A DNA stretch of 64,000 nucleotides. Source: Bdellovibrionales bacterium RIFOXYC1_FULL_37_79. Its GTDB lineage: Bacteria; Bdellovibrionota; Bacteriovoracia; Bacteriovoracales; Bacteriovoracaceae. The notes below the pieces were generated by a model that worked only from the letters and a program-made list of their open reading frames with translations, ran no database searches and was not told the origin of the DNA. The translations under genes and the position numbers were made by a program. The stretch's first letter is position 1. Each line of letters opens with the position of its first letter. Where the stretch lies: contig MEQB01000042.1 in assembly GCA_001770015.1 (NCBI GenBank), forward strand, positions 62,001 through 126,000, read 5' to 3'. Positions 14,948 through 43,049 of the stretch are shown piece after piece.

Positions 14948-15865
14948 ATGGAAGTCGGTTCAAATATCAGACAATTTTCCTCGCAGGATCAGTTTATCAA
15001 GCAAAAAAAGCTTCTTGAGAACGCTAAAACTGCTTCGCTCAAGGAAGGTGAGGCTAAAAGTGAAGCGACTAAAGATATGGTCAAAAAAGACCTGCCACCC
15101 GATAAGGCGGAGATTTCTCAAACTGCTAAAGACTTGGCTAAAGAGACTTCAAAATTTAATGGAGAGTCGGTTGGCAGCAAGGCATCAGCTCTAAAAGGTG
15201 CGGCGGATGTTTTGGGTAAACTTGTTCCAGGTAAAATTGATAAAGCCCATGAAATTGAAAAGCATGAAAAACTAAAGACTGATCTTCGGCCGATAAAAAA
15301 ACCAGGTGTTTTTTTTATCGGTGGTTTTAATTGGCTAGGACTAAGTGGTGAAAATAAAAAATTAGAAGAAATGAGTCAGCACATTCCGGATTCCAAATAT
15401 TTTGATTACCAGGACAAGGATATAATTATCAGTGAGATCAAGCGGCGTCCGAGTGGGCAGCCCATTATCTTGGTAGGCCGAGGATTTGGTGGGGATGTTG
15501 CCAAAGAAATTGGAAGTGATCTGGATTCCATGGAGCATGGCTTTAAAAAAATTGATCTTTTGGTGACTATTGATTCATCCAGTTTTGCTAAAGATATCAT
15601 TCCTCAAAATGTGGTAAAGCATATTAACTTGATTGATGAATCAAGTCTTTTTAACGACGGGCCTAATATTGCTAGAGATTCCAATCGGACGATGGTAACT
15701 AATACTCTATTGAAAGATGATATTTTGGGATCAAGACAAGTGCAGTTTGATTTATTTCAAAATATCAATTCCGTTTTAGGTGATACAGCTCTTCAAAATC
15801 ACCTGGCCAAAGAATCCATTACGGATATGGCCGTAAATGAGACGTTACGGGAACTTAGAAATTGA
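14948..15865 (+). CDS. Alpha/beta-hydrolase-like protein lacking the nucleophile serine
   Basis: The 305-residue protein has a Lys/Glu/Ala-rich, probably disordered N-terminal third, followed from about residue 115 by an alpha/beta-hydrolase-like core: GVFFIGGFNWLG, IILVGRGFGGDVAKEIG, and DLLVTIDSSSFAKDIIPQNVVKHINLID. At the nucleophile elbow the usual G-x-S-x-G is GRGFG, with glycine at position 169, so ordinary serine catalysis is not possible. No signal peptide is present. It may be a non-catalytic scaffold. The ribosome site is weak. It converges with tatD, leaving one base between the two stop codons. Confidence 0.62.
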   Translation: MEVGSNIRQFSSQDQFIKQKKLLENAKTASLKEGEAKSEATKDMVKKDLPPDKAEISQTAKDLAKETSKFNGESVGSKASALKGAADVLGKLVPGKIDKAHEIEKHEKLKTDLRPIKKPGVFFIGGFNWLGLSGENKKLEEMSQHIPDSKYFDYQDKDIIISEIKRRPSGQPIILVGRGFGGDVAKEIGSDLDSMEHGFKKIDLLVTIDSSSFAKDIIPQNVVKHINLIDESSLFNDGPNIARDSNRTMVTNTLLKDDILGSRQVQFDLFQNINSVLGDTALQNHLAKESITDMAVNETLRELRN

Positions 15866-35323: not shown

Positions 35324-36166
35324 GTGCTTGCAAAAATACAGCACTCCATTGATGGTACGATTAAAATGCTTTTTAAGCTTTCAGATGGTCAGTTGGTTGA
35401 AACAGTTGCCTTAGTTTTTCGCAAAAAATATACCCTGTGTTTATCATCCCAGGTTGGCTGTCGCTTTAATTGCGTTTTTTGCTTTACCGGAAAACAAAAA
35501 TTACAAAGGAGTTTGACGGCTAAAGAAATCATCGATCAATATTTGGCGGCTTGGAATTATCTCAAAGAAAATAAAAAGACTATAGCCACCGCCAATATTG
35601 TTTTTATGGGCCAAGGTGAGCCACTTGATAATTTTGAAGCCATTAAAGAAAGTATACTATATTTTATGCAAACTGATGGTATCAAGCTTGGACCTCGGCA
35701 AATAACCATATCGACGGCAGGCTATCTTCCTGGTTTGAAGCGTTTTTTGGAACTTCCTCCCATCAATTTGGCCATTTCTCTTCATTGTGCCGACAGTGTG
35801 AAAAGAAGTCAGATCATGCCTATTAATAAAAAATATCCAATTGAAGATATTATTAATGTGGTTAAAAACTTTCCGCTTGCTAAAAAGCAATATATTGCTT
35901 TTGAATATCTGCTTATAAAAAATTTTAACGACCAAATTGATGATGCCTATGGTTTATTTGGCTTGATCAAAGAGTTGAAGGCCATAGTTAATCTTATTCC
36001 TTTTAATCCTTATCCCGGAACCTTATTTGAAAGATCTTCTAAGGATGAGGTGGATGAATTCAAGCAGTGGTTGGTGAAGTTAAGACTGAGGACGATGATC
36101 CGGGCTAGCCGTGGCCTCGATATTATGGCTGCTTGTGGTCAGCTAAGATCCCCTGATCATCGATAA
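35324..36166 (+). CDS. Compact RlmN/Cfr-type radical SAM methyltransferase
   Basis: The 280-residue protein begins with GTG preceded by GAGAAG. It carries the RlmN/Cfr core: QVGCRFNCVFC (C46, C50, C53), FMGQGEPLDNF, ISLHCADS and SRGLDIMAACGQL with the methyl-carrying cysteine at C271. RlmN methylates adenosine 2503 of 23S rRNA and some tRNAs. Typical RlmN/Cfr proteins have about 340-390 residues; here the N-terminal RNA-binding HhH-like domain of about 80-90 residues is missing and nothing matching it lies upstream. Target choice may therefore differ. Its 3' end overlaps the convergent glutathionylspermidine gene by 44 nt. Confidence 0.85.
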   Translation: MLAKIQHSIDGTIKMLFKLSDGQLVETVALVFRKKYTLCLSSQVGCRFNCVFCFTGKQKLQRSLTAKEIIDQYLAAWNYLKENKKTIATANIVFMGQGEPLDNFEAIKESILYFMQTDGIKLGPRQITISTAGYLPGLKRFLELPPINLAISLHCADSVKRSQIMPINKKYPIEDIINVVKNFPLAKKQYIAFEYLLIKNFNDQIDDAYGLFGLIKELKAIVNLIPFNPYPGTLFERSSKDEVDEFKQWLVKLRLRTMIRASRGLDIMAACGQLRSPDHR

Positions 36167-38039
36167 TCCGAAGCGGGAGAATATCACTTGAACTGGTTAA
36201 TATTGGGGAATAATCGGTTCTGGCACAAGATCCAGCGTAATGGTGAAAGACAATAAAGGAGCTGATTTGAATATTTTTTCCATCGACTTTGGGAAGTGGA
36301 AAAAATTCTTGGTATATATAATTTTTTTTGTCAAACTGACCTTCGGTATTGGATAGAATCGCTCCATCTTCTTTGACTATTTTGATATTCTCCCCACATC
36401 TTCCTGAAATTGGTTTAATCACATACCCGTTGGTAAACATATCCTTATTGTAGGTAAAGCTACTTTTTAAAAGGTTGGGATGTTCGGGGTATAATTGAGT
36501 GAGTATCGGTAGGATGGCCTTATTACTTGGAATTAATGTCCAGAAAGGCTCAAATATTTGGATTTTTTCGTGAAGAAGAATATCAAAAAGTCGGGGGTGA
36601 GTGAGCTGTTTACTTCTTTGTTCAAGAAATTGATCCAGAGTTTTAAAGTCCTCAAGTTTTTCATGTCTTAATTGTTCCAGCACGGTTTCCCAGGCCCATG
36701 TCTTCCAGATGATTTTAATTTTAAGACCGTCTGAATCGACAATATTGCCCTTTTTATCAAACGCAAAATCGTCGATACCGCATATTGCTTTGCAAATAAA
36801 TCCAGCTCGCTCAATAGATTCTTTCATAAAAAGAGCATGGTAGGTTTCTTCTGGATTATTATCGTAAAGGATATGAATAACTTTGCTGCCATCGACTCTT
36901 TTCCAGGCTGAAACCAAGTCGGGTTGTAGTTTTTCTCCGGTGCATTTGCCATCGTTGCAACCAAAGTGATCGGCCCATTTTAATTGAACCTTTCCGCATT
37001 CCATATAACAAGAGGCGGAGTCAGCATTGTATTCATATGCCTTGAGACCTTTGCTAGACATTGTAAAATCCAGTCTTCCCGTAATCATGTGATGGTGACG
37101 GTTTTTCCAGGAGTTTTGTATTTTTGGCCAGATGATTTGCGGAATTGAAAAATATGAAAGTAATTCAGGGTTCATCATGACGTGGTCTGTGGCCCGCAGA
37201 AACATCATATGCAATTCATTGCTGACTTGCTTGAGTTCATGTTCAGCAGTTTTGGAAATGCATAAAAACTTATATTGATCAGATTCTGCGCTCGCCAATT
37301 TATGTCCGTTCATCACCTGCACATAAATATTTTCATCTTCGTTTGCAACATTTAACCATGACTGCGATGCCTGGTTGTTATGGGGAATATTTCTCAAAAT
37401 AATGTTAAGTAAATCAGGATTAGGAGCTGTCAATTTTTCGCTATGGGAGGAGTCATCGGTTTGAATTACCCAGCCCAGAATATGGGCCTTTTCACATTCA
37501 CACTTGATCCAGTAGCCGCCATGTAAATCAATTACCGCCTTAAGCTCTCTTGAAAACATCTGTCCATTTGGCCAAATGGAATCTTCAACGTTTTGTTCAA
37601 TGAATCTGATTTTATCGTTAAAGACTTCGGTCACTATCGCCACATGGCCAGTAATTTCAAACTGTCCACCTTCATCCCAGATAAGCATACTTCCCGGTTC
37701 GGGATGTCTTTTGGAGCCATTTTTAAAGGAATGAAGTGGCAGCGTAGCTGCGGTTTGGGAGTGAGGGTTTTTCAAGTCCTTGAGTTTGAAGATGTCATAT
37801 GCCATGGGTACATCTTCAAATGTGTGGCCGGTGTGAAGATACATCCATCTTCTTGCCAGTTCCACGCATTGCCATTTATATCCCATCCAGATGTTATCAA
37901 AGTAACTGCGAAAGGAGTCTCGATCAGAGCTTTTTGACTTTTTTACGCTGTCGTAATTGGATGAATAAACTTTAAGCCCCTTTGGGCCGATGCCAAGTAA
38001 TGTATCGAAAGGAGCTTTGGTTGGTTTTTTTGTATTCAT
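36123..38039 (-). CDS. gss: Bifunctional glutathionylspermidine synthetase/amidase
   Basis: About 638 residues: an N-terminal CHAP-type amidase (catalytic Cys in YKWQCVELARRW at position 58, His in ITGHVAIVTE at about 132) and a C-terminal ATP-grasp synthetase (MITGRLDFTMSSKGLKAYEYNADS, KPISGRCGENI). These Cys/His positions closely match E. coli Gsp (C59/H131), which supports this ATG rather than an upstream TTG at 38075. The synthetase joins glutathione to spermidine and the amidase reverses it. Neither start has a strong ribosome site. Confidence 0.9.
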   Translation of the reverse strand: MNTKKPTKAPFDTLLGIGPKGLKVYSSNYDSVKKSKSSDRDSFRSYFDNIWMGYKWQCVELARRWMYLHTGHTFEDVPMAYDIFKLKDLKNPHSQTAATLPLHSFKNGSKRHPEPGSMLIWDEGGQFEITGHVAIVTEVFNDKIRFIEQNVEDSIWPNGQMFSRELKAVIDLHGGYWIKCECEKAHILGWVIQTDDSSHSEKLTAPNPDLLNIILRNIPHNNQASQSWLNVANEDENIYVQVMNGHKLASAESDQYKFLCISKTAEHELKQVSNELHMMFLRATDHVMMNPELLSYFSIPQIIWPKIQNSWKNRHHHMITGRLDFTMSSKGLKAYEYNADSASCYMECGKVQLKWADHFGCNDGKCTGEKLQPDLVSAWKRVDGSKVIHILYDNNPEETYHALFMKESIERAGFICKAICGIDDFAFDKKGNIVDSDGLKIKIIWKTWAWETVLEQLRHEKLEDFKTLDQFLEQRSKQLTHPRLFDILLHEKIQIFEPFWTLIPSNKAILPILTQLYPEHPNLLKSSFTYNKDMFTNGYVIKPISGRCGENIKIVKEDGAILSNTEGQFDKKNYIYQEFFPLPKVDGKNIQISSFIVFHHYAGSCARTDYSPILTSSSDILPLRIIDDQGILADHKQP

Positions 38040-38191
38040 TTTTATTAGTGGAATTGTTTTAGCCAAACTTACCAATATAATTAATGGGTGACAAAAAAAA
38101 TGTATTACATTTTTACATAATGATTAATTAGGATTTGCACTCAGTGCTGCGGTGTGCTGGGTTAATGCGATTTGAATTAGGGGGTAGAACT

Positions 38192-38293: not shown

Positions 38294-39136
38294 CTAAAAA
38301 ATCCTCTTTCTTAAAAATACTATCGCAATAAAATAAATAATACTGCTTAAAATAATAATCACTGGGCCAGAGGGAGCATTAATTTCGTAGCTGATAGCAA
38401 GCCCGGTAATTACAGTAAAAAGAGAAATGAGAATGGAATAAATAATCATGCTTTTGATATTTTTTGATAAAACGCTGGCAATTCCTGAGGGAATAGTAAG
38501 CATAGCTACAATCATGACAATGCCCACCACGTTGATAAGCATGACGACAGTGATGGCAATTAAAACTAGTAAGAGGATGTAATAAAATCTGGTATTGATT
38601 CCTCTAAGTCTTGCAAATTCTTCATCAAAACAAATAGAAACAAATTTATTAAAAAATAAAATAGTTATGGTTAAAACCAAAATGTCCAAGATGATAACCG
38701 TGATGAGATCTTCAAGTCCGACCATAAGTATGCTGCCAAAGAGATAACTCATAGGATCGGTATATCCTGGGGTGTAGTAAATGAGAATTAAGCCGATGGC
38801 CATACCAAATGCCCATAAGGCCCCAATCAAAGTATCTTCGCGTTCCTTATAGTAGATGGTGAAGTAACCAATCAGCAAGGCTGAAAAAATCGCCATTAAA
38901 ATTGCACCAATTTGAGGAGTCATCCAAGTAATTTCATGTACCTTGTTTAAATACATTCCCAGTCCTATGCCGCCAAGAATACAATGAGAAATAGCACCGG
39001 CAATAAAGCTGACCCGCTTGATAACCACAAATGTTCCCATGATACCAAAAGCAAAGGAGGCAAAAATGCCAATTAAGGTGGCATACATAAGAAAAACCAT
39101 ATCGGGGTTGAAGATATCTATAAAAAATTGAATCAT
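38294..39136 (-). CDS. znuB: Zinc ABC transporter permease ZnuB
   Basis: The 280-residue ABC-3 family permease has eight or nine hydrophobic helices and the typical GTFVVIKRVSFIAGAISHCILGGIGLG segment. It forms the inner-membrane channel of a metal importer with ZnuC and ZnuA. Its start overlaps znuC by 4 nt (ATGA type). Zinc as substrate follows from the His-rich ZnuA and the operon's metal-binding regulator candidate; manganese cannot be excluded from the permease alone. Confidence 0.92.
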   Translation of the reverse strand: MIQFFIDIFNPDMVFLMYATLIGIFASFAFGIMGTFVVIKRVSFIAGAISHCILGGIGLGMYLNKVHEITWMTPQIGAILMAIFSALLIGYFTIYYKEREDTLIGALWAFGMAIGLILIYYTPGYTDPMSYLFGSILMVGLEDLITVIILDILVLTITILFFNKFVSICFDEEFARLRGINTRFYYILLLVLIAITVVMLINVVGIVMIVAMLTIPSGIASVLSKNIKSMIIYSILISLFTVITGLAISYEINAPSGPVIIILSSIIYFIAIVFLRKRIF

Positions 39137-39879
39137 TTGGTTTTTACCTCATGGTCATGGGCAATATATTGATATTTTTTAGAAATGATTTCTTGGAAAT
39201 TTTTTTCATTAATTTCATTTGGATAATGAATGTGAGAATCCTTATTAATACATATAACGTAATCGACCAAGGATGATACAAATTGATATTCGTGAGATAC
39301 CATAATTATACTCATTTCAGCATTGAGCTTTTTCAAAAGATCTAAAAGTATTTGTTCATGGTGGGTATCGATACCGGCACTTGGTTCATCCAGAATAAGA
39401 ATTTTGGGCCGACAAGTGAGCGCCCTGGCAATCAAAACTCTTTGCTTTTGCCCTCCCGATAAAGAGGAAAAAAAGGCGTTTTGGTATTCGATGACATTCA
39501 TTTTGGTCATGGCCTCTATGGCATTTTGGTGATCCTTTTGGGTGTATAGGCCAATAAAGCGATGTCCGAGACACCCCATTAAAACAACCTCTTCCACTGT
39601 AATCGGTATTTGAGGATCAAAAACCAGATGCTGAGGGAGGTATGCAATTTTATGAGGATTTTTGCCCGGTTTTGTTCCAAAAATTTGAACACTACCTGAC
39701 TGTGGTGATAAAAGACCGAGTAAAATTTTGACCAAAGTGGTTTTTCCTCCACCATTGGGCCCGATTATCCCGACGAACTCATTTTCACAAATTTTAAAGG
39801 AAATGTTTTCTAAAACATTTTTATCCAAATGTTCATAAGTAAAATTTAATTTATCAACTTCTATTATAATATTTTTCAT
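39133..39879 (-). CDS. znuC: Zinc ABC transporter ATP-binding protein ZnuC
   Basis: The 248-residue ABC ATPase has Walker A GPNGGGKTT (40-48), signature LSGGQKQR (140-147), Walker B LILDEPS (161-167) and the switch histidine in MVSHE. It powers zinc uptake across the inner membrane. It lies 4 nt after znuA and overlaps znuB by 4 nt, showing a tightly coupled operon. Confidence 0.93.
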   Translation of the reverse strand: MKNIIIEVDKLNFTYEHLDKNVLENISFKICENEFVGIIGPNGGGKTTLVKILLGLLSPQSGSVQIFGTKPGKNPHKIAYLPQHLVFDPQIPITVEEVVLMGCLGHRFIGLYTQKDHQNAIEAMTKMNVIEYQNAFFSSLSGGQKQRVLIARALTCRPKILILDEPSAGIDTHHEQILLDLLKKLNAEMSIIMVSHEYQFVSSLVDYVICINKDSHIHYPNEINEKNFQEIISKKYQYIAHDHEVKTK

Positions 39880-39883
39880 GGGG

Positions 39884-40735
39884 TTATTCGTAAGCCTTTT
39901 TTATAGCATTTGCCATGTCTATAAAGTTTTTTAATACATTTTTTTCCAGCGGATTGATGGAAACGACTTCTCCCTTTATTCCATCTGCAATGGTTTGAGC
40001 TGCTTTGGTGGAAAACTGAGGAGACACAAAAATTACTTTGGTTTTGTCTTCTTTGGCCTGTTTAATAATATGGGCGATGTGTTTCGGGGAAGGGGATTTT
40101 CCTTCCAGTTCAATTGCTTCTTGTAATAAATCAAATGCATTCAGAAAATACCCAAATGCCGGATGGAAAACAAATACTTTTTTACCTTTGAGAGGGGCGA
40201 GTAATTGATTGGTTACAGTTATTGTTTGATTGAATTGGGATTTAAAATTTACTAAATTTTTTTGATAGGTTGGTTGATTGTTTGGATCATGTTTGGAGAG
40301 TGTTGATGCAATAATTTCTGCCATATTATTAATGGCAATAGGGGATAGCCAGATATGAGGATCAAATTCATTTTCATTATGTCCTTGCTTGTCTCCATGG
40401 TCATGGGAGCTTTCCATTTTTCTTTTTTTAAAATTTTGATCTAGCATGATAATACTTAGACCCTTCTGAGAATTTATTTTATTTAATATGATGGATTCAA
40501 ATTGGGCACCTATTGCGAAATAAAACTGGGCCGTACTTATTTTTTTTATTTGTTCAGGTGAGGGAGTATAAGTGTGAGGGTCTTTGCCCTGTCCAATCAA
40601 AGTGGTGGTAGCAACCAGGTTTTTGCCGATTTCTTCCACTAAAAAAGTAACTGGCTCAATACTGGTAATAATATTGATTTGTGCTTGCGTGCTCGAAATC
40701 AAAAGAAAAGTTAGAATAAAAAATAAATTTTTCAT
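39884..40735 (-). CDS. znuA: Zinc-binding periplasmic protein ZnuA
   Basis: The 283-residue cluster-9 substrate-binding protein has a signal peptide (MKNLFFILTFLLISSTQA). Metal ligands include H54 in DPHTYTPSPEQ, the His of FDPHIWLSP, the His of FVFHPAFGYFL, and a His/Asp-rich loop (SSHDHGDKQGHNENE) typical of zinc-specific ZnuA. It captures zinc in the periplasm and delivers it to ZnuB. It begins one base after the regulator gene stop codon. Confidence 0.94.
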   Translation of the reverse strand: MKNLFFILTFLLISSTQAQINIITSIEPVTFLVEEIGKNLVATTTLIGQGKDPHTYTPSPEQIKKISTAQFYFAIGAQFESIILNKINSQKGLSIIMLDQNFKKRKMESSHDHGDKQGHNENEFDPHIWLSPIAINNMAEIIASTLSKHDPNNQPTYQKNLVNFKSQFNQTITVTNQLLAPLKGKKVFVFHPAFGYFLNAFDLLQEAIELEGKSPSPKHIAHIIKQAKEDKTKVIFVSPQFSTKAAQTIADGIKGEVVSINPLEKNVLKNFIDMANAIKKAYE

Positions 40736-40736
40736 A

Positions 40737-40997
40737 TTATTTCCTGCATTTAATTATATTTGAATTGCATTTTTTACATTCATTTATAGAATGATTTTTC
40801 AAAAAACTATTAAGGTGATTCATTTCATCTTGAGTCATAGTACCCTTTCCTCTACAAAGCGGGCACGTGTGTTTCATGGCCTGTAAAACAGCCTCTCTAA
40901 TGAAGTCTGAACTGTTTGGGAGTGACTTAATATATTTTGCCAGATCGGCGTCGACTTTGAATGTGATGACTTCTTTGGATGTTGATTTTTCTTTCAT
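40737..40997 (-). CDS. Ribbon-helix-helix protein with Cys cluster, probable zinc-responsive regulator of znu
   Basis: The 86-residue protein joins an N-terminal ribbon-helix-helix DNA-binding segment (EVITFKVDADLAKYIKSLP, then NSSDFIREAVLQAM) to a metal-binding tail: H43, CPLC (45-48), H61, H69, CKKC (74-77) and C84. It is the first gene of the znuACB operon, one base from znuA, and a perfect 12-bp inverted repeat overlaps its promoter. The natural reading is an autoregulated repressor that senses zinc, a role usually filled by Zur. Similar RHH/Cys-cluster proteins occur near metal genes in other proteobacteria, but I know of no characterised member. Confidence 0.82.
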   Translation of the reverse strand: MKEKSTSKEVITFKVDADLAKYIKSLPNSSDFIREAVLQAMKHTCPLCRGKGTMTQDEMNHLNSFLKNHSINECKKCNSNIIKCRK

Positions 40998-41001
40998 AAG
41001 A

Positions 41002-41028
41002 AGAAAGTATTACAAAGTAATACTTTCT
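41002..41028. promoter_or_regulatory. Inverted-repeat operator in the znu promoter
   Basis: Half-sites AGAAAGTATTAC (41002-41013) and GTAATACTTTCT (41017-41028) form a perfect 12-bp inverted repeat with an AAA spacer, 5 nt upstream of the RHH gene ATG. It covers the interval between the -35 and -10 elements and the -10 itself, so a bound repressor would block RNA polymerase. Palindromes of this type suit dimeric ribbon-helix-helix proteins. Confidence 0.78.
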
Positions 41029-41033
41029 GTCAA
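41004..41033 (-). promoter_or_regulatory. Promoter of the RHH-znuACB operon
   Basis: On the minus strand a perfect TTGACA (41028-41033) is followed after 18 nt by TACTTT (41004-41009); a TAATAC with 15-nt spacing is a second option. The transcript start would fall at or within a few bases of the ATG (40997), and no Shine-Dalgarno sequence is present, so the mRNA may be leaderless. Confidence 0.6.
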
Positions 41034-41922: not shown

Positions 41923-42039
41923 ATTTTGAAGCCTAGAGGTCAATATTTCCCCATGAAGTTGGTAAAATGGTTATTGGCTTTCTTTTTATTTATGATAGAG
42001 GTGATGAGTGTGGATGGTTTGGGCCTGATAAAGCTGTTC
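41923..42039. repeat. Direct repeat copy 1 (rlmH 3'-end remnant, attL/attR-like)
   Basis: This 117-bp segment matches 42933-43049 in direct orientation with 8 differences, all transitions, about 93% identity and no gaps. Positions 41986-42039 on the minus strand read EQLYQAQTIHTHHLYHK then stop, a remnant of the rlmH C terminus carrying R-to-Q and P-to-L changes relative to the intact gene. The other 63 nt match the sequence just downstream of rlmH. Confidence 0.93.
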
Positions 42040-42157: not shown

Positions 42158-42589
42158 ATGAAAAATGAAAAAAGAATTGCCATTTATGAAGTTCATAAAA
42201 TAAAAGCCATTGAACATTTTTTAATGGCAGAAAAGGCGATAAACCATGAGGTTAATCCTCTTTACGAGCAAATGGTTATGAATTGTCACATGGGAGTTGA
42301 GATGATTATGAAAGCTGCCATTTATAAATTTGGTGGAATCCCGCCAACACATGGTCCCGAAGGCCATAACTTATTGAAAATTGCCAGTACTAAAATTGGC
42401 AAAAGGAAATTATTACTCGATGCAATAAATTCTACTGGATTTATACAGCCTTTGTGGCATAAAATAGTGTCAGCGTGGAATATCAATAAGCGCTACGAAT
42501 TTATGGGGCTTTCACCGCTTGATTATGATGATTTATATGAAGCTTATGAAAGGTTTTACAGATGGATAGTAGCAAAATTTGTAGATTAG
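42158..42589 (+). CDS. HEPN-domain protein of the rlmH cassette
   Basis: The 143-residue protein is helical and fits the HEPN fold: AEKAINHEVNP, CHMGVEMIMKAAIYKFGGIPPTHGPEGHNLLKIAS (about 43-77) and WNINKRYEFMGLSP near 97-110, resembling the conserved THdl and RYP segments of PF05168-type HEPN proteins. These often act in toxin-antitoxin, abortive-infection or nucleotide-linked systems, usually with an MNT nucleotidyltransferase, which is absent here. An ATG at 42107 would add a hydrophobic 17-residue lead; neither start has a clear ribosome site, so the start is uncertain. The last 28 nt overlap the next gene. Confidence 0.7.
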   Translation: MKNEKRIAIYEVHKIKAIEHFLMAEKAINHEVNPLYEQMVMNCHMGVEMIMKAAIYKFGGIPPTHGPEGHNLLKIASTKIGKRKLLLDAINSTGFIQPLWHKIVSAWNINKRYEFMGLSPLDYDDLYEAYERFYRWIVAKFVD

Positions 42590-42885
42590 TTAAAGATCAA
42601 CTTCAATCAATGGAAGTAACGGAAATATTTGCATCGATTGAAGATGAGGATTGTATTCGATTGGAAATTGTATCTAATTATTTTCAAGGAATGCGAATCA
42701 TAAAGCGAATTGAACTTTTATCAAAGTTGCTTCAGAAAATAGCCATGAATGAACTTAAAGATTATCACTTAATCTTTAATCCTTTAACTATCAATGAAAA
42801 ATCTAGTAATGTTGATGAAACTGCAAATCGTCTATCTACAGACGGTAAACAATTAAATGGCATTGCAGCTCAAACCAATTTGTAA
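42562..42885 (+). CDS. Small BolA/IbaG-like protein paired with the HEPN protein
   Basis: The 107-residue protein resembles BolA/IbaG: an N-terminal helix (KICRLVKDQLQS), a strand, then IRLEIVSNYFQGMRIIKRIELLSKLL, which parallels the F-x-G-x5-R/K helix-turn-helix-like region of the family, and a following strand (YHLIFNPLTINEK). The final ~28 residues are an extra polar tail. The usual BolA Cys/His iron ligands are not obvious. AAAGG lies 8 nt before the ATG. It overlaps the HEPN gene by 28 nt, which strongly suggests a functional pair. The BolA assignment is by eye and moderate. Confidence 0.62.
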   Translation: MDSSKICRLVKDQLQSMEVTEIFASIEDEDCIRLEIVSNYFQGMRIIKRIELLSKLLQKIAMNELKDYHLIFNPLTINEKSSNVDETANRLSTDGKQLNGIAAQTNL

Positions 42886-42932: not shown

Positions 42933-43049
42933 ATTTTGAGGCCTAGAGGTCAATATTTCCCCACGAAGTTGGTAAAATGGTTATTGGTTTTCTTCTTATT
43001 TGTGATAGGGGTGATGAGTGTGGATGGTTTGGGCCCGATAAAGCTGCTC
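42933..43049. repeat. Direct repeat copy 2 (intact rlmH 3' end)
   Basis: Partner of the 41923-42039 repeat. Positions 42996-43049 encode the last 17 residues and stop codon of the functional rlmH (EQLYRAQTIHTHHPYHK); 42933-42995 is the downstream flank. Coding constraint keeps this copy intact, whereas copy 1 has drifted. Confidence 0.93.

Follow-up and report, generated by a model that had tools for sequence, protein, structure and literature searches.

A small cysteine-rich protein resembling ribbon-helix-helix regulators heads a zinc-uptake operon in Bdellovibrionota and may be its zinc-dependent autorepressor

The window (the whole 64-kb stretch of DNA analysed here) carries on its minus strand a four-gene operon in which an 86-aa ORF comes first and is followed by znuA, znuC and znuB. 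A perfect palindrome and a promoter-like site lie immediately ahead of the first gene. The features are as follows.

38294-39136, minus strand: znuB, ABC-3 permease (PF00950, 5e-67; NCBIfam)
39133-39879, minus strand: znuC, ABC ATPase (Pfam, NCBIfam)
39884-40735, minus strand: znuA, zinc-type substrate-binding protein (PF01297, 2.5e-61; NCBIfam; aligned solved relatives)
40737-40997, minus strand: gene for an 86-aa predicted regulator resembling ribbon-helix-helix (RHH) proteins, with a C-terminal CPLC(x25)CKKC(x6)C cluster (ORF, profiles, model, 92% identical relative)
41002-41028, minus strand: putative operator, the perfect inverted repeat AGAAAGTATTAC-TTT-GTAATACTTTCT as read on that strand (exact repeat)
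41006-41033, minus strand: promoter-like site, TTGACA (41033-41028), a 16-nt spacer and AATACT (41011-41006), with TG before the -10 (consensus)

Successive genes are separated by 1 nt and 4 nt, and the last two overlap by 4 nt; this tight spacing makes a single transcript likely. The first ORF starts with ATG, and only ∼4 further codons are open upstream of it (open frame of 90 codons). An initial annotation of this DNA had made this ORF the first gene of znuACB, and the ORF coordinates, together with the Pfam and NCBIfam matches of the genes downstream, confirm the arrangement. The best solved relatives of ZnuA in alignments are zinc-uptake binding proteins, including E. coli ZnuA. His54, His127 and His191 align with the three histidine columns of these relatives, and a His-rich loop occupies residues 111-119. 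On this likeness to zinc-uptake proteins, zinc is the likeliest cargo of the ZnuACB importer. A glutathionylspermidine-synthase-like protein with an N-terminal CHAP domain is encoded 3' of znuB on the same strand (36123-38075), and is found at this position in both genomes of the genus.

The N-terminal 43 aa of the 86-aa protein gave a single match in Pfam, to RHH_1 (0.0099; 16.2 bits, cut-off 20.5), and a single match in NCBIfam, to aCcr1 (1.2e-4; 21.9 bits, cut-off 60), an RHH cell-cycle regulator family. An AlphaFold model places a strand at residues 10-14 and helices at 17-25 and 31-42, the element order of the RHH fold, with a pLDDT of only 55; a fold search with this low-confidence model returned nothing useful. 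When aligned with the DNA-binding region of NikR from E. coli (sequence checked against PDB 1q5v), the protein scored better than 99.5% of shuffles, and a direct BLASTP search against NikR gave no match. The RHH assignment of the initial annotation is therefore plausible from RHH_1, aCcr1 and the strand-helix-helix model, with every profile score lying under its curated cut-off. Membership of the RHH superfamily is probable.

The CPLC and CKKC clusters described earlier are present at C45-P-L-C48 and C74-K-K-C77, and are joined by an additional cysteine, C84. The C-terminal part probably carries a Cys4 zinc site. This part of the protein weakly resembles the zinc motifs of anti-TRAP and DnaJ, with profile matches under the cut-off. 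Identity as an anti-TRAP or DnaJ cysteine-motif protein was rejected on the single CPLCRGKG plus CKKC, the lack of a repeated CXXCXGXG, and the sub-threshold profiles. NikR was likewise rejected as an identity: the protein contains no NikR_C domain (PF08753), and the BLASTP search against NikR was empty. NikR_C is also absent from the genome and was found in only 1 of 192 genomes of the phylum, which bears out the earlier distinction between this regulator and NikR.

The inverted repeat at 41002-41028 has 12-nt arms and a 3-nt spacer, giving 27 bp without a mismatch, exactly as first described. It sits 4 bp 5' of the regulator ATG, in the minus-strand context ...TTGACAGAAAGTATTACTTTGTAATACTTTCTTCTTATG.... 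In 30 dinucleotide shuffles of the whole window, perfect repeats of at least 12 nt with a loop of at most 10 were expected 0.13 times per 64 kb; the window itself holds two, the second of which, at 15290, is terminator-like. The repeat overlaps the TTGACA-16-AATACT site, which with 10 of 12 consensus matches is the highest-scoring promoter-like site in its 4.2-kb region, although such sites as a class are no commoner in this region than in shuffles. We infer from the consensus only that this site is the promoter of the operon; the earlier placement of the repeat over the promoter thus holds for the best predicted site. In each of the two genomes of the genus the predicted -10 stops 8 nt short of the regulator ATG (window positions 40997-41011), and no Shine-Dalgarno-like sequence precedes the ATG. 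The mRNA from which the regulator is translated may be leaderless or nearly so.

Two GTAWTAC dyads lie inside the 27-bp repeat, GTATTAC centred at 41020, which extends to AAAGTATTACTTT, and GTAATAC centred at 41010. RHH repressors commonly bind as small dimers placed next to each other along the same face of the DNA. Short dyads about one turn apart, a feature of RHH operators for adjacent dimers, are found here, and the 10-bp spacing is the geometry expected of two small dimers adjacent on one DNA face. The half-site of E. coli NikR, GTATGA, resembles the GTATTAC of the present site. A predicted delta-proteobacterial NikR site reads GTGTTAC-N13/14-GTAACAC (PMC545781), and its half-site shares 6 of 7 bases with GTATTAC, a likeness that was spotted post hoc and that a random 12-mer from the window reaches 0.9% of the time. 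The spacing of the half-sites here and that in the delta-proteobacterial NikR sites differ by 10 bp, equal to one helical turn. The NikR-like half-site does no more than suggest that the palindrome is read by an RHH protein.

The site appears to serve this operon alone. The initial annotation had suggested looking for the half-site upstream of other metal genes; the genome-wide search yielded 46 sites with at most one mismatch, compared to 76 for the reversed control, and the operator was found nowhere else. With up to three mismatches, the full operator matched only itself and sites within coding genes in both genomes, and the 13-bp unit AAAGTANTACTTT occurs once in a non-coding position per genome and otherwise inside coding genes. 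Because the operator is single in each of the two genomes, the 86-aa protein would be a local regulator and not the head of a regulon. A unique site at the regulator's own promoter fits a linked, dedicated autoregulator.

Zinc-uptake operons of this kind are elsewhere accompanied by regulators of the Fur family. In Haliovirga abyssi the order is fur-znuA-znuC-znuB with the 7-1-7 palindrome TGCAAATcATTTGCA in front; one member of the same family (G008) has a metal-ABC operon that closes with a Fur gene, and in Thermomicrobium a ‘transcriptional repressor’ precedes the metal ABC operon. The 86-aa protein has no match to the FUR domain (PF01475). Neither genome of the genus (G000 and G001) yielded a Fur-family protein, with a small chance of a missed Fur given their incomplete assemblies (96% and 85%), and nor did two further members of the bacterial family (G022 and G042); the same search detected Fur proteins in 13 of 14 control genomes and in 5 family members. 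The lineage seems to be without Zur. At the locus itself, the best agreement with Zur- or Fur-type operators was 13/22 for gamma-proteobacterial Zur, 9/14 for Bacillus Zur and 9/14 for the Fur 7-1-7 site, and equally good sites occur 180, 244 and 612 times, respectively, in the window. The 27-bp site showed no likeness above background to the Zur, Fur, AdcR or NikR consensus. The initial annotation had read the operon as controlled by something other than Zur, and this stands, since no Zur site was found here and the genome has no detectable Fur-family protein. As a Fur-type regulator occupies the equivalent slot elsewhere, we favour the view that the 86-aa protein takes the place of Zur in the operon. 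G022 and G042, which have a znuA homologue (loci L005 and L009) and no detectable Fur-family protein, carry no comparable palindrome 5' of znuA.

The whole arrangement, with the same neighbours, recurs in one genome, the same-genus MAG Bdellovibrionales bacterium RIFOXYA1_FULL_36_14 (locus L041). The regulator is 92% identical between the two genomes and ZnuA 71%. All 27 bases of the operator are identical (p about 0.08), which is weak evidence alone because the flanks are 91-92% identical. In a search over 389 relatives, the close relative scored 202 bits and the next best match at most 19.4 bits. No further homologues were found with phmmer or HMM searches of 143-389 relatives, in plasmids, phages and IMG/VR, or in 84,980 species, where the patterned search was limited to close relatives. 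A DNA pattern of RHH followed by CPxCxGxG retrieved only one RNase E/G-like motif match from 369 phylum genomes, and none of 28 loci checked in other family members had a small ORF with two CXXC motifs near znuA. The weak homologue matches that were inspected proved to be fragments of unrelated ORFs. Conservation of the cysteines and the operator is thus seen between two closely related genomes only.

We favour, as the probable explanation, a dedicated autorepressor that stands in Zur's place, with zinc bound to CPLC...CKKC as the likely co-repressor. The 86-aa protein would repress the regulator-znuA-znuC-znuB transcript, including its own gene. Its N-terminal strand-helix-helix is predicted to dimerise, and two dimers would occupy the GTATTAC and GTAATAC units next to each other, on one DNA face of the palindrome, where they would cover the -35 and -10 elements and block RNA polymerase. 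With enough zinc available, Zn(II) on the C-terminal CPLC...CKKC would keep the protein in its DNA-binding form. Under zinc starvation the apo form would release the DNA, so that regulator and importer are both made. The RHH fold, the stacking of dimers, the pairing of protein and operator, and DNA binding itself are inferred, as are the co-repressor role of zinc and the direction in which expression responds to it.

The strongest competing explanation is a repressor whose zinc is purely structural and serves only to fold its C-terminal part; such a protein would answer to another signal or, through negative feedback, keep expression at a constant level. A structural role is very common for Cys4 zinc knuckles, and the faint likeness of the C-terminal part to the anti-TRAP and DnaJ cysteine motifs would suit such a role. 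The archaeal protein CdrL, which combines RHH with a double zinc ribbon, also sits in a cell-division locus and not in one for metal uptake (PMC7439475). We nevertheless consider this explanation unlikely: the target is a zinc importer in a genome that has no other detectable Zur or Fur, and zinc uptake would escape control by zinc if the bound zinc were purely structural.

Less probable again is that the palindrome belongs to another regulator and that the 86-aa protein has a different role, for example as a metallochaperone. Protein and site are paired by position only, and a DtxR/MarR-like winged-helix protein (G000:C23) is present in both genus genomes and could be such a regulator. However, linked autoregulators typically have a genome-unique site at their own promoter, as found here, the site matches no Zur, Fur, AdcR or NikR consensus above background, and the N-terminal part of the protein resembles the DNA-binding RHH domain, if in sub-threshold profiles. 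We give very little credence to a sensor that responds to Ni, Mn, Fe or Co instead of zinc, with ZnuACB importing that metal. Such a sensor would parallel NikR, the known RHH metal sensor (PMC7055735), and the resemblance of the half-site to NikR half-sites is in its favour. It is opposed by the three His ligands and His-rich loop of ZnuA, which align with zinc-binding ZnuA structures, by the preference of four-cysteine sites for zinc, and by the lack of a NikR_C domain. Mn-type binding proteins carry a Glu/Asp ligand set, unlike the three histidines of ZnuA.

The proposed autorepressor shares features with several known systems. Like the linked Zur systems (zur-znuABC in Geobacter sulfurreducens, fur-znuACB in H. 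abyssi), it combines a small regulator gene within the znu operon, a palindrome ahead of that gene and a presumed repression of zinc uptake, but it has no FUR domain, its 86 aa are RHH-like where Zur is a winged-helix protein, and its operator is not Zur-like. With NikR it would share a two-part build, predicted here, in which an RHH region binds DNA and the C-terminus binds metal, and the half-sites resemble each other (GTGTTAC in delta-proteobacteria, PMC545781; GTATTAC here). In contrast to NikR, the C-terminus is Cys-rich and without NikR_C, the operon is one for zinc uptake, and the half-sites are spaced by 3 bp instead of 13-16 bp. CdrL of haloarchaea is also small, with an N-terminal RHH followed by Cys motifs that bind zinc at the C-terminus (PMC7439475), but differs in its double zinc ribbon, its cdrS-ftsZ2 cell-division locus and its restriction to haloarchaea, and no sequence relation to the 86-aa protein is shown. 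AdcR, of the MarR family, is a precedent in that it represses zinc uptake in response to zinc without being a Fur-type protein (PMC6103462); it differs in fold and metal site, and no AdcR-type operator was found at the locus.

A 2018 review of zinc-import regulators lists Fur-type (Zur) and MarR-type (AdcR) proteins (PMC6103462), and a 2019 review describes NikR as the sole metal-regulated RHH protein (PMC7055735), so that a zinc-sensing one would be new. No zinc-responsive RHH regulator was found in the open-access literature. If the zinc dependence is true, the protein would represent a new metalloregulator family and the first zinc sensor known in the RHH superfamily. We see about an even chance that it is the first zinc-sensing RHH repressor, that metal sensing arose among RHH proteins a second time besides NikR, and that the protein replaces Zur in a lineage of Bdellovibrionota without detectable Fur proteins. 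With a single 86-aa protein and a single 27-bp site, the locus is a concrete candidate for another mechanism and small enough to be tested.

Upstream of the operon, a 117-nt direct repeat is present in two copies (41923-42039 and 42933-43049) that are 93% identical and 1010 nt apart, and the second copy covers the end of rlmH. Between the copies lie a HEPN-domain ORF (42158-42589) and a small ORF (42562-42885). The related locus L041 is without the insert, and rlmH there adjoins an ankyrin gene. The segment 41923-43049 looks like a mobile HEPN pair whose insertion duplicated the end of rlmH.
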